From contig NZ_JAPVBQ010000004.1 in assembly GCF_026968045.1 (NCBI RefSeq), positions 62,001 through 126,000 on the forward strand: a stretch of 64,000 bases of DNA, written 5' to 3'. This stretch comes from Modestobacter sp. VKM Ac-2977. Its GTDB lineage: Bacteria; Actinomycetota; Actinomycetes; Mycobacteriales; Geodermatophilaceae. This document shows, piece after piece, positions 53,600 through 57,479 of this stretch; positions within the stretch are counted from its first letter, which is position 1, and the number at the start of each line of letters is the position of its first letter. The notes beneath the pieces are model-generated. The model was not told the origin of the DNA. It did no database searches and worked only from the letters and a program-made list of their open reading frames with translations. Made by a program: the position numbers and the translations under genes.

Positions 53600-55199
53600 G
53601 GCGCCGCACCGCGTAGGTGAACGCGTCGACCAGGGCGTGCCAGGAGGCCTCGACGATGTTGTCGTGCACCCCGACGGTGGTCCACTCCCCCACGCCGTCG
53701 CTGCTGTCGACGAGCACCCGGGTGGTGGCGCTGGTGCCGCCGTTCCACCCCAGGATGCGCACCTTGTAGTCGGCCAGCGAGACGTCGGCCAGGTGCGGGT
53801 ACCGGCTGACCAGGGCTTGGCGCAGCGCGTTGTCCAGGGCGTTGACCGGGCCGTTGCCCTCGCCGGTGCTGATCACCCGCTCCGTCGTCCCGTCGTCGTT
53901 CGGCACGTGGACCTTGACCGTGGCCTCGCTGACCACGACCCCGTTCCCCCAGTGCTCCACGGAGGTGCGGTAGCTCTCCAGCTCGAACAGCGGCGCGGGG
54001 GCACCAGGCAGCTGCGCGCGCAGCAGGAGTTCGAACGAGGCATCGGCGGCCTCGAAGGACCAGCCGTCGGCCTCCAGCACCTTGACCTGGTCGACCACCC
54101 GGCCGATCGCGTCGGCCTGCCCGGCCAGGTCGACCCCCAGCTCCCGCCCCTTGAGCTCGATCGAGGCCCGGCCGGCCATCTCGGTGACCAGGATGCGCAT
54201 GTCGTTGCCGACGACGGCGGGGTCGAGGTGGTTGTAGAGCTCCGGGCTCACCTTGATCGCGCTGGCGTGCAGGCCGGCCTTGTGCGCGAACGCCGAGGCG
54301 CCGACGAACGGCTGGTGGTCGTCGGGGGCGATGTTGGCCAGCTCCGCGATGGCGTGGCTGACCCGCTTGAGCTCCGGCAGGCACTCGGGCGGCACGACCG
54401 GCAGGTCCATCTTGGTGACCAGGTTGCCGATCAGCGCGAACGTGTCGGCGTTGCCGGCCCGCTCGCCGTAGCCGTTGGCGGTGCCCTGCACGTGCGTCAC
54501 CCCGGCCTCGACGGCGGCCAGGGTGTTGGCGACCGCGCACCCGGTGTCGTCCTGGCAGTGGATGCCGAGCTTGCCGGTGGTGCGCGCGCGGACGTCGGCG
54601 ACCACGCGGCCCACGCCCATCGGCAGCATGCCGCCGTTGGTGTCGCAGAGCACGCCCACCTCGGCGCCGGCGGCGAAGGCGGCCTCCAGCACCGCGACGC
54701 CGTGGTCGGGGTCGGCGGCGTACCCGTCGAAGAAGTGCTCGCAGTCGAGGAAGACCCGCCGTCCGTGGGAGACCAGGAAGGCGACGGTGTCGGCGACCAT
54801 CGCGAGGTTCTCCTCGGGCGTGGTGCGCAGCGCCTCCCGCACGTGCCGCACGTCGGACTTGGCCACCAGGCACACCACCGGGGTCTGCGCGTCCAGCAGG
54901 GCGCGCACCTGCGGGTCGTCCTCGACCCGGACGCCGACCTTGCGGGTGGCGCCGAAGGCCACCAGCTGCGCGTGCTGGAGGTCCAGCTCGGTGCGCGCCC
55001 GGGCGAAGAACTCGGTGTCCTTGGGCATCGCCCCCGGCCAGCCGCCCTCGATGAAGCCGACCCCGATCTCGTCGAGCAGCCGGGCGACGGCGAGCTTGTC
55101 GGCGACCGAGTAGCTCACGCCCTCGCGCTGGGCGCCGTCGCGCAGCGTCGTGTCGAAGACGTGGAACGAGGTGGTGTCAGTGGCGGGGGGCTTGGCCAC
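53595..55199 (-). CDS. cimA: (R)-citramalate synthase
   Basis: Condenses pyruvate and acetyl-CoA to citramalate, the first step of isoleucine synthesis from pyruvate; 534 residues. VFDTTLRDGAQREGVSYS is the HMG-lyase-like active-site motif, HCQDDTGCAVANTLAAVEAG and VQGTANGYGERAGNADTF the metal site, and the C-terminal LeuA dimer/regulatory domain covers about 400-530. It could be mistaken for 2-isopropylmalate synthase, but the GAQREGVSYS and HCQDDTGCAV variants fit CimA, and an Ile-codon leader precedes it. GTG at 55199 has GGGAG 6 nt upstream. Confidence 0.93.
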   Translation of the reverse strand: MAKPPATDTTSFHVFDTTLRDGAQREGVSYSVADKLAVARLLDEIGVGFIEGGWPGAMPKDTEFFARARTELDLQHAQLVAFGATRKVGVRVEDDPQVRALLDAQTPVVCLVAKSDVRHVREALRTTPEENLAMVADTVAFLVSHGRRVFLDCEHFFDGYAADPDHGVAVLEAAFAAGAEVGVLCDTNGGMLPMGVGRVVADVRARTTGKLGIHCQDDTGCAVANTLAAVEAGVTHVQGTANGYGERAGNADTFALIGNLVTKMDLPVVPPECLPELKRVSHAIAELANIAPDDHQPFVGASAFAHKAGLHASAIKVSPELYNHLDPAVVGNDMRILVTEMAGRASIELKGRELGVDLAGQADAIGRVVDQVKVLEADGWSFEAADASFELLLRAQLPGAPAPLFELESYRTSVEHWGNGVVVSEATVKVHVPNDDGTTERVISTGEGNGPVNALDNALRQALVSRYPHLADVSLADYKVRILGWNGGTSATTRVLVDSSDGVGEWTTVGVHDNIVEASWHALVDAFTYAVRRR

Positions 55200-55238
55200 G
55201 GTGTCTCCCGGGTCGGCTCGGTACTGGGCCCAGACACG

Positions 55239-55265
55239 AAAAAACCTCCCGGGGTACGGGAGGTT
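55239..55265 (-). terminator. Intrinsic terminator of the cimA attenuator
   Basis: On the minus strand AACCTCCCG, loop TACCC, CGGGAGGTT and then four more T make a 9-bp stem with a six-T run. Unlike the other terminators in the window it has a true U-run. It lies between the leader ORF and cimA, 39 bp before the cimA start. Confidence 0.9.
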
Positions 55266-55294
55266 GCGCGCAGTCCGGGGAGGTGACTGCGCGC
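55266..55294 (-). promoter_or_regulatory. Leader hairpin of the cimA attenuator
   Basis: GCGCGCAGTC, loop ACCTCCCCG, GACTGCGCGC: a perfect 10-bp stem whose 5' arm starts at the last base of the leader stop codon and whose 3' arm touches the terminator. The loop repeats ACCTCCC, the sequence of the terminator 5' arm, so it could pair with the terminator 3' arm when the hairpin is opened. Confidence 0.8.
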
Positions 55295-55326
55295 TAGCTG
55301 ATGATGATCGTGCGGGTGGCGTCCAT
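55294..55326 (-). CDS. cimA leader peptide (MDATRTIIIS)
   Basis: A 10-codon ORF, ATG to TAG, with three consecutive ATC (Ile) codons at positions 7-9 and two Thr codons (4 and 6), 127 bp ahead of cimA. It ends exactly where the leader hairpin begins. TTCCAC, 18 bp, TGTACT stands upstream as a weak promoter, which would place the start of RNA at or near the ATG. The arrangement is that of a transcription attenuator sensing charged tRNA-Ile. Confidence 0.8.
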   Translation of the reverse strand: MDATRTIIIS

Positions 55327-55357
55327 CACCACCAGTACAGCACGCCGGGTCCCTGGA

Positions 55358-55398: not shown

Positions 55399-56364
55399 TC
55401 ACCCGACGTCGATCACCACGCTGCCGGTCTTCTGTCCGCGCTCGACGTACCGGTGGGCCTCGACGATCTGCGCGAGAGGCCAGCGCCGGTCGTCGAGGAC
55501 GGGCCGGAAGGCGCCCGAGGCCAGGAGGTCCCGCAGGTCGGTGGGCATGGCCGGGTCCTGTACCGGGACGGGGAAGACGACCCGGCGCCGGCGCAGCAAC
55601 GGCGTGACCGCGGCCAGCACCGGGTTCTGCGCCAGCCGCCCCAGGTCGGTGGACACGTAGCGGCCGCGGGGGCGCAGGAGCCCACGGCACTGGCGGAACG
55701 AGCTCTTCCCGACCGCGTCCACGACGACGTCGTAGCGGTGCGGGTCGGCCCGGAAGTCCTCGGTCGTGCGGTCGATGACCCGTTCGGCGCCCAGGCTGCG
55801 CACCAGGTCGGCCCGGGCCCCGTCGCAGACGGCGGTGACGTGTGCACCGAGGTCGCGCAGCAGCTGGACCACCGCCGAGCCGATCGCCCCGGTGGCGCCG
55901 TGGACGAGGACGTCCTCACCCGCCCTGATCCGCGCCCGCCGCAGGACCGCCACCGCGTAGTGGGCGCCCTCGGTGGCGGCCGCCGCGACGTCGTCGGGGA
56001 CGTCGTCGGGCACCCGCGCCAGGAAGCCGTCGGCGGGGACGGTGAGGAACTGCGCGTGCGCACCGAACCGGCCCTCGACGTAGCCGAACACCCGGTCACC
56101 GACCGCGAGGTCACCCACCCCGGCACCGACCGCCGCCACCACGCCGGCGAACTCGGTGCCCAGGACGGTCGCGCGGGGCCGGCGCACCCCGGTGAGCAGC
56201 CGGGTGAGCAGGGGTGTGCCCGCCCGGTACGCGCAGTCGGTGCGGTTGACCGTGGTGCAGCGCACCCGGACCAGCAGCTCGCCCGGGCCGGCGACCGGCA
56301 TCGGCACCTCGGTGACCCGGACGACGTCCGGCGGACCGTAGCGTTCCCGCACCGCAGCCAGCAC
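55399..56364 (-). CDS. Zinc-free MDR oxidoreductase (quinone oxidoreductase-like)
   Basis: A 321-residue NAD(P)-dependent medium-chain reductase. VLGTEFAGVVAAVGAGV and GDRVFGYVEGRFGAHAQF form the GroES-like domain, and VLVHGATGAIGSAVVQLLRD the nucleotide fold. No structural zinc cysteines are seen. PhaA-type or quinone reductase activity is possible; the substrate is unknown. It lies between leuB and cimA on the same strand, without evidence of a role in amino acid synthesis. Confidence 0.88.
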   Translation of the reverse strand: MLAAVRERYGPPDVVRVTEVPMPVAGPGELLVRVRCTTVNRTDCAYRAGTPLLTRLLTGVRRPRATVLGTEFAGVVAAVGAGVGDLAVGDRVFGYVEGRFGAHAQFLTVPADGFLARVPDDVPDDVAAAATEGAHYAVAVLRRARIRAGEDVLVHGATGAIGSAVVQLLRDLGAHVTAVCDGARADLVRSLGAERVIDRTTEDFRADPHRYDVVVDAVGKSSFRQCRGLLRPRGRYVSTDLGRLAQNPVLAAVTPLLRRRRVVFPVPVQDPAMPTDLRDLLASGAFRPVLDDRRWPLAQIVEAHRYVERGQKTGSVVIDVG

Positions 56365-56409: not shown

Positions 56410-57429
56410 TCAGCCGGCGAGGGCGGCCAGTCGGTCGCCCACCTCGGTGGTGCGTATCGTCGCCTTCGGGTCGCGGGTGGAGAGGTCGAAGGCGACGGCG
56501 GCGTTGACCTTCTTGGCCAGCTCCGGCCGGCCCAGGTGCTCCAGCAACAGCCCGACCGAGAGCACGGTGGCCGTCGGGTCGGCGATGCCCTGCCCGGCGA
56601 TGTCCGGCGCGGAGCCGTGCACCGGCTCGAACATGCTCGGGTTGGTGCCCGACACGTCGAGGTTTCCGCTGGCGGCCAGCCCGATCCCGCCGGTGACCGC
56701 GGCGGCGACGTCGGTGACGATGTCGCCGAAGAGGTTGTCGGTGACGATCACGTCGTAGCGGCCCGGGTCGGTGATGAAGAACATCGCCGCGGCGTCGACG
56801 TGCTGGTAGGCCACGCTGACCTCGGGGAACTCGGCGGAGAGCTCCTCGACGGTGCGCGACCACAGCGAGCCGGCGTGGGTGAGCACGTTGGTCTTGTGGA
56901 TCAGCGTGAGGTGCTTGCGCGGCCGTGCGACCGCCCGCTCGAAGGCGTACCGGACGACGCGCTCCACGCCGAAGGCGGTGTTGAGACTGACCTCGGTGGC
57001 CACCTCGTGCGGCGTGTCCCGCCGCAGGACACCGCCGTTGCCGACGTAGGGACCCTCGGTGCCCTCGCGCACGCAGAGCATGTCGATCTCACCGGGCTCG
57101 GCCAGCGGGCTGCGCACGCCGTCGAAGAGCCGCGCCGGGCGGAGGTTGACGTGGTGGTCGAGCTCGAAGCGCAGCTTGAGCAGCAGCCCGCGCTCCAGGA
57201 TGCCGCTGGGCACCCCGGGGTCACCGACCGCACCCAGCAGGATCGCGTCGTGCTGCCGTAGCTCCTCCAGCACCGAGTCCGGGAGCAGCTCACCGCTGCG
57301 GTGCCAGCGGGCCGCCCCCAGGTCGTAGAAGGTGCTCTCGATGTCCGGGGCGACCGCGCCCAGGACCTTGAGGCCCTCGGCCACCACCTCGGGACCGATG
57401 CCGTCTCCAGGGACCACTGCCAGGCGCAT
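56410..57429 (-). CDS. leuB: 3-isopropylmalate dehydrogenase
   Basis: Oxidative decarboxylation of 3-isopropylmalate in leucine synthesis, 339 residues. [20 protein letters not shown] is the N-terminus and sets the start at 57429. [28 protein letters not shown] (catalytic Lys), [11 protein letters not shown] and [19 protein letters not shown] complete the active site. The same enzyme may act on citramalate-derived 3-methylmalate in the isoleucine branch, which would fit cimA close by. Confidence 0.96.
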
Positions 57430-57479
57430 GAGGCCAGAGGTTAGTGGGCGCCCGGCTCGGGCCCCGCACCCGCACACGC

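Follow-up and report, generated by a model that had tools for sequence, protein, structure and literature searches.

The citramalate synthase gene cimA is very probably preceded by an isoleucine-responsive attenuator, which lies on the minus strand of the window (the whole stretch of DNA that was analysed, 64,000 nt in length) and consists of a short leader ORF with adjacent isoleucine codons, a GC-clamped hairpin that begins on the leader stop codon (hairpin 1, HP1) and an intrinsic terminator that directly adjoins it. The anatomy, the isoleucine codons, the covariation in both stems, the fixed geometry and the association with cimA are all observed, and they extend through many lineages of the Actinomycetes. 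The explanation proposed for them as a whole, namely a ribosome-mediated attenuator that ties cimA to charged tRNA-Ile and in which HP1 is an antiterminator by virtue of abutting the terminator, is put forward at a shade under even confidence.

Anatomy of the element

The preliminary description had reported a leader ORF, a 10-bp hairpin on its stop codon, a terminator and then cimA with its own ribosome-binding site, and all of these parts can be read directly on the minus strand (Table 1). Counted along the leader, the three isoleucine codons start at positions 19, 22 and 25, the stop codon at 31 and HP1 at 33, the first base of HP1 being the G of the TAG stop codon. The HP1 arms are GCGCGCAGTC and GACTGCGCGC, with a GCGCGC/GCGCGC clamp at the base and the loop ACCTCCCCG, in which the repeat ACCTCCC pointed out in the preliminary description is genuinely present. 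The terminator consists of the 5' stem AACCTCCCG, the loop TACCC and the 3' arm CGGGAGGTT. It was likewise claimed at the outset, and is the sole terminator in the 401 bases searched (shuffled sequences average 0.0); over both strands of the window, it is also the sole match to the combined criteria of a hairpin below -10 kcal/mol and a T-run. The 221-nt region folds with a z-score of -4.6. The downstream product scores 611.2 bits against NCBIfam TIGR00977 (cut-off 450), and the other 21 models listed all stay below their own cut-offs. An Rfam search over the window returned three tRNAs only at gathering score and no known RNA family at the element, where seven weak matches all fell under their gathering scores.

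Table 1. Features of the cimA leader region, in the coordinates of the window
Feature	Position	Strand	Basis
Extended -10-like promoter element, TGC-TGTACT	55334..55342	-	sequence; predicted transcription start on the leader ATG or no more than about 2 nt from it
Leader ORF MDATRTIIIS*, 10 codons (ATG GAC GCC ACC CGC ACG ATC ATC ATC AGC TAG)	55294..55326	-	sequence; leader ORF in 46/50 family loci and class-wide
Sensor codons, three adjacent ATC (Ile)	55300..55308	-	at least 2 Ile within 33 nt of HP1 in 141/150 leaders
Hairpin 1 (HP1), 10 bp, proposed antiterminator (protector in the preliminary description)	55266..55294	-	fold -19.0 kcal/mol
Intrinsic terminator stem-loop, 9 bp, adjoins HP1 with gap 0	55243..55265	-	fold -14.7 kcal/mol; 1 found, 0.0 expected
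Terminator U-run, six T, of which the first two U also end the stem	55239..55244	-	sequence
cimA ribosome-binding site, GGGAG	55205..55209	-	sequence; five bases before the cimA GTG at 55199
cimA, citramalate synthase, 534 aa	53595..55199	-	NCBIfam TIGR00977 citramal_synth

Within the promoter-like element, TGTACT occupies 55339-55334 (-) and the leader ATG follows 7 nt downstream, so that leader translation probably proceeds with no ribosome-binding site. The pattern TGnnnnAnT followed by a start codon 4-9 nt later occurs in 69 of 123 upstream regions, against 2% in shuffled sequences, which suggests, at the level of sequence, that the transcript begins at or adjoining the leader ATG. An inverted repeat further upstream, at about 55378-55355, is present in the fold and was dropped as a part of the element because it is altered in the same-genus loci L003 and L004. 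As for the surroundings, a gene resembling quinone oxidoreductases (55399-56364, minus strand) lies between leuB (56410-57477) and cimA in the window, and in several relatives the end of a leuB-like gene is seen by eye just upstream of the attenuator.

Conservation and distribution

The suggestion that cimA is preceded by an isoleucine leader-peptide attenuator is borne out far beyond the close relatives of this genome. cimA is present in 51 of the 56 genomes of the family, seemingly the Geodermatophilaceae, and in the upstream regions of 50 of these genes (the split copy in G053 was left out) the element was found at 46 loci and was absent at four, L024, L044, L045 and L047. By eye, cimA directly follows an apparent leuB end at these four loci, and at the further element-less loci L157, L160-L162 and L165 it directly follows a leuB-like or aminotransferase-like gene, as if co-transcription with the preceding gene replaced the element there. 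The closest named relative over cimA, among the best 80 entries of a longer list, is L185, with 90% identity.

Of 394 genomes in the class, 186 contain a match, at E values up to 0.01, to a covariance model that comprises HP1 and the terminator and was built from 40 distinct family elements; a cimA match at E 1e-110 exists in 310 of the 394. Besides the cimA element of the window, 90 model matches were taken, mostly from the top of the matches listed, and their genes were assigned by tblastn and by reading: 77 lie upstream of cimA (one of them, L054, duplicates the family locus L026), 12 upstream of ilvB and one upstream of leuA (L110). The model is also not the limit of the distribution, as a model-free search, for hairpins that adjoin a terminator, recovered the element in 28 of 40 cimA loci picked for having no or only a weak model match, some Streptomyces-like ones among them having matched at E 6e-5 to 0.01. 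This is the count of the script, which missed the element that L178 carries by eye and which in five of the 28 chose another hairpin, so that HP1 was split by hand; five of the 28 finds have leaders that match named Streptomyces leaders.

In named genomes (the best 80 of a longer list), the element occurs at 41 of the 78 cimA loci long enough to be judged, with at least two isoleucine codons in 38 of the 41, and the carriers include Micromonospora, Kutzneria, Amycolatopsis, Pseudonocardia, Streptomyces, Nonomuraea, Cellulomonas, Kribbella and Demequina. The same search did not find it at any of the 11 loci with the titles Acidimicrobi-, Ilumatobacter-, Coriobacteriia, Nitriliruptorales or Aerophobetes (L248, L249, L252, L253, L256, L257 and L260-L264); being strict, with six outer HP1 pairs and a gap of 0-3 nt required, a miss in it does not prove absence. 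Taken over the class, the element is probably a common control of cimA in actinobacteria.

Covariation and fixed geometry

Both stems covary, as the preliminary description would have predicted for a conserved structure. In 90 elements aligned by fitting to the covariance model, 96.9% of the cells pair, against 83.9% in shuffles and 36-59% with slid partners, and 14 of the 19 pairs change on both sides (seven of ten in HP1, seven of nine in the terminator). HP1 is the more stable of the two hairpins in 99 of 116 elements.

What varies and what does not is sharply divided. The first three pairs of HP1, GCG, are invariant (129 of the 129 longer HP1s) and the fourth is nearly so, while the loop is not fixed and HP1 differs in length, spanning 22-65 nt in one set and reaching 71-73 nt in loci of the Streptomyces-like kind. 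Among 134 elements, HP1 and the terminator adjoin with no gap in 42, stand 1 nt apart in 85 and 2 nt apart in 7; this count drops L135, whose hairpins are nested in the fold, and owes part of its elements to a model in which the gap is short. The gap is 0, 1 or 2 nt in 37, 3 and 1 of the 41 named elements, in a search that allowed 0-3 nt, and 0-2 nt in the 23 model-free loci with HP1 correctly picked, where up to 7 nt were allowed. Upstream, the last isoleucine codon starts 7-9 nt before HP1 in 127 of the 148 leaders that have one, and the stop codon as parsed falls between 4 nt before HP1 and well inside it, never earlier, in 150 leaders.

Two features of the stems may be recorded separately. 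The GCGC at the HP1 base (55294-55291 and 55269-55266 in the window) hardly ever varies across families, beyond what pairing needs, for which polymerase pausing or the prevention of slipped pairing are guesses. In the terminator stems of unique cimA elements, wobbles with U in the 5' arm and G in the 3' arm number 106, against 8 of the opposite kind, a bias that HP1 stems do not share (10 against 15) and for which no other terminators were found in the window to serve as a control.

Sensor codons and other target genes

Conserved isoleucine codons were a further expectation, and 141 of 150 leaders have two or more of them in the 33 nt that precede HP1, compared with 3.5% for shuffled upstream sequence; in both cases, the frame with most isoleucine codons was taken. 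The 150 leaders are 149 of cimA plus that of leuA (L110), without L068, where no start codon was parsed, and without the duplicate L054. By the parser, eight of the 149 cimA leaders have fewer than two isoleucine codons, the ninth such row being the leuA leader. In the 46 family elements, two, three and four isoleucine codons near HP1 occur in 22, 23 and one case, respectively. The proposal that two threonine codons add sensing of a second isoleucine precursor is not supported: threonine comes second among the eight amino acids counted, with two or more codons in 60 of the 150 leaders, close to serine at 55 and far from isoleucine at 141. As a side observation, ATT makes up 139 of 367 leader isoleucine codons, a share that seems high for GC-rich genomes; rarer isoleucine codons may sharpen stalling.

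That the leader is a sensor of its own amino acid is supported most strongly by codons that fit the pathway inside an unchanged RNA frame. At ilvB the leaders read like VRFGILVLH or VARILVLP and at leuA MTNLLLT, that is, the codons switch to leucine, valine and isoleucine or to leucine, and the frame is kept. The layout of the ilvB elements, a GCGC-based HP1 adjoining a terminator with sensor codons just before it, is common to cimA and to the 12 of 90 matches that lie at ilvB. One of these belongs to the same genome as the window: locus L084 (G000:C11:129857-129922, minus strand), with the leader VPRTRLLVAIH*, lies beyond the window, at a distance of about 12.6 kb from the cimA element, and is matched by the cimA model at E 6.7e-10. 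Two further matches to an exact-motif pattern in this genome fall inside long ORFs (one nusA-like by eye), look like chance and were set aside. The leuA element (L110, G089:C27:88390-89080; leader MTNLLLT*) has the same layout, and the parts available of PMC1262725 and PMC8079986 describe the actinobacterial leuA leader without a typical terminator. The three genomes taken from the family to which L110 belongs (f13) are absent from the cimA carriers among the matches listed.

Proposed action of HP1 on the terminator

For the working of the element, we infer the transcription start, the ribosome positions, the polarity and, above all, the abutment step. A transcript beginning on or beside the leader ATG would take on a ribosome at once. 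With isoleucine plentiful, this ribosome would pass the isoleucine codons and reach the stop codon on or inside HP1, where it would cover the 5' arm of HP1; HP1 would be blocked, the terminator would fold and cimA would be off. With isoleucine scarce, the ribosome would wait at the first isoleucine codon, upstream of HP1, and HP1 would form and antiterminate. HP1 would do so while sharing no base with the terminator, its GC-clamped base standing 0-2 nt away: the lowest terminator pairs would close inside the polymerase exit channel, which a clamped helix 0-2 nt off could not enter, and, because the two bases adjoin, HP1 would have to unzip before those pairs could close. The formation of HP1 on starvation, with read-through promoted, is given even chances. 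That abutment is the reason why HP1 antiterminates, as its geometry suggests, is a tentative proposal, made because a strong HP1 base and a near-zero gap are conserved throughout.

The assignment of HP1 as the antiterminator follows from the ribosome positions, since a ribosome at the first isoleucine codon would leave HP1 whole and one at the stop codon would remove it. Under the occlusion of 26 nt centred on the codon that is assumed in the portion available of PMC13236596, the ribosome reaches into HP1 by about 1 base from the first isoleucine codon, about 7 from the last and about 13 from the stop codon, extending in the latter case past the HP1 5' arm. The mechanism turns on which of these three reaches counts. 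The same polarity has been proposed for ilvB1 of Mycobacterium tuberculosis, where, according to that portion, the antiterminator would be masked by a ribosome sitting on the stop codon and would form when one stalls at LVVI, and swapping LVVI abolished the response (PMC13236596). Against this counts the case of the Streptomyces coelicolor ilvB leader, in which codon changes had no effect, as reported in PMC1262725, in the part available.

A mismatch-free extension of HP1 into the terminator exists in one of 120 unique cimA elements, the overlap being 0 nt in 119; if one mismatch is allowed, 1-3 nt overlap in 74 of the 120. HP1 and the terminator are predicted to coexist (mean terminator probability 0.98 with HP1 free), so that their exclusion would rest on the steric argument.

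Other explanations

The preliminary description had sought the switch in the loop of HP1 instead. HP1 would then be a protector, a ribosome stalled at the last isoleucine codon would free its C-rich loop to pair with the terminator's G-rich 3' arm, and a ribosome at the stop codon would mask the start of the loop too and let the terminator form. In the window this pairing is predicted: the loop ACCTCCC is the exact complement of GGGAGGT, and the terminator probability, 0.96 with HP1 free, falls to 0.13, 0.03, 0.01, 0.01, 0.02 and 0.13 as 6 to 11 nt of the HP1 5' arm are masked and returns to at least 0.81 with 12 or more nt masked. Such a profile fits a ribosome at the last isoleucine codon and at the stop codon if the leading edge lies 13-14 nt past the first base of the codon, and the 7 or so nt masked from the last isoleucine codon under the 26-nt footprint (PMC13236596, portion available) also lie within the favourable range. 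In the family, whose HP1 loops are 72% C and 4% G, 19 of 46 elements have at least one mask of 4-10 nt under which the probability drops below 0.5, against 12% for shuffled loops, and the loop-arm duplex energy of 37 unique elements is -12.6 against -10.0 for shuffles (mean p 0.22); pairing of a P1 loop with the terminator shoulder has also been proposed for the Corynebacterium ilvB-II motif in the accessible text of PMC10272879. The full logic of last isoleucine and stop codon, however, is predicted in only 4-6 of the 46 family elements at an edge of 13-14 nt and in none at 11-12. In the class, the probability falls below 0.5 in only four of 76 cimA elements (three of 70, against 5% for shuffled loops) and in none of 12 ilvB elements; the class set includes L110, and the isoleucine/stop counts omit 27 of the 76, where the stop codon is too deep in HP1 or no isoleucine was parsed. 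The duplex energies of 75 unique class elements, -9.7 against -9.2 (mean p 0.44), show no excess complementarity. Individual loops argue in the same direction, as in HP1 interiors such as CAACCTAGTTG, the 71-nt Streptomyces-like ones or the ACCCCCC loops of the L037 kind, which no longer match an arm that reads GGGAGG, and terminator loops are C-rich as well (55%). Pairing in four of 76 elements cannot make this a switch of the whole class unless pseudoknots or kinetics come to its aid; that it is what operates in this genome is rather unlikely, and in the close relatives of the window the predicted pairing may add a second, classical route to the abutment proposed above.

HP1 also stands where a pause hairpin would, and might synchronise polymerase and ribosome, with read-through arising via coupling or a NusA/NusG-like factor. 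The unvarying GCGC, which exceeds what pairing needs, and the lack of any predicted class-wide shared-strand antiterminator agree with such a role, but a pause hairpin need not abut a terminator, whereas here the gap holds at 0-2 nt even though the loops vary freely; this explanation is improbable. Abutting helices can stack, so HP1 might conversely strengthen the terminator, a stall at the last isoleucine codon, so regularly 7-9 nt before HP1 (127 of 148 leaders), opening its base and weakening termination. This is very improbable, as the terminator is predicted without HP1 (mean probability 0.98 in cimA elements with the HP1 5' arm and loop masked) and as a ribosome at the stop codon would open HP1 with isoleucine plentiful too. 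Short ORFs are common, and one might precede an ordinary terminator by chance with no regulatory meaning; the conservation, the codon specificity and the covariation leave this reading practically no room.

Relation to known attenuators

The attenuators of the Escherichia coli trp, his and ilv operons combine a terminator and segments that overlap throughout with a leader peptide in which the sensed amino acid occurs in runs, whereas no such overlap of segments is predicted class-wide in the elements described here. The kind of control is known, and the layout, as far as the parts available of both sources describe them, belongs with the actinobacterial ilvB leaders (PMC1262725) and the leader peptides of Streptomyces lividans (PMC8079986). 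New in the present case are cimA as the target, a code of isoleucine alone, the wide distribution and hairpins that abut with no strand shared class-wide. The actinobacterial ilvB leaders likewise have a short ORF with branched-chain codons, a hairpin and a U-run terminator, but their code is a mixture of leucine, valine and isoleucine; the abstract and section 4 of PMC1262725 (Seliverstov 2005) report no cimA element and term the ilvB mode unclear. In the leader-peptide table of S. lividans in the form available, alaS, ilvBHC, thrS, trpS, leuS, leuA, trpE and metNIQ appear and cimA is absent (PMC8079986). The belief that an attenuator of cimA had gone undescribed finds agreement in the literature matches listed, none of which names one in its title or abstract opening, subscription papers lying mostly outside this coverage.

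Three relatives come closer in structure, in the sections available of the respective papers. The 'fast attenuator' of Corynebacterium glutamicum ilvBNC also has antiterminator and terminator side by side, with their bases deciding, and its leader start lies one nucleotide from the transcript start (PMC11857589); its stems, however, share the trinucleotide GCC, a 3-nt overlap that is needed, as opposed to the 0 nt shared in nearly all cimA elements (PMC11857589). In M. tuberculosis ilvB1, the target is ilvB and not cimA, and antiterminator and terminator are described as mutually exclusive folds (PMC13236596). The Corynebacterium ilvB-II motif has a uORF with branched-chain codons and two hairpins, P1 and P2, the latter being the terminator, and its pairing of the P1 loop with the P2 shoulder resembles the loop repeat of the window; its uORF spans most of P1, in contrast to the cimA sensor codons, which lie upstream of HP1 (PMC10272879).

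Biological meaning

By these results, leader-peptide control would extend to cimA, and would do so in many lineages of the class, Streptomyces and Micromonospora included. Citramalate synthase catalyses the entry step of the route to isoleucine that does not depend on threonine, and this genome also has a threonine deaminase match above the family cut-off, so that cimA looks like a second route, the use of which would be set by isoleucine itself. For the Actinomycetes more widely, it is conceivable, if short of probable, that there is a class of attenuators in which the antiterminator acts by position and not by base competition, with exchangeable sensor codons in a constant RNA frame. The natural set of elements already splits what is fixed (the distance from codons to hairpin, the GCGC clamp and the gap of 0-2 nt) from what is free (the loop and the length of HP1), and this separation makes the idea of abutting hairpins directly testable.
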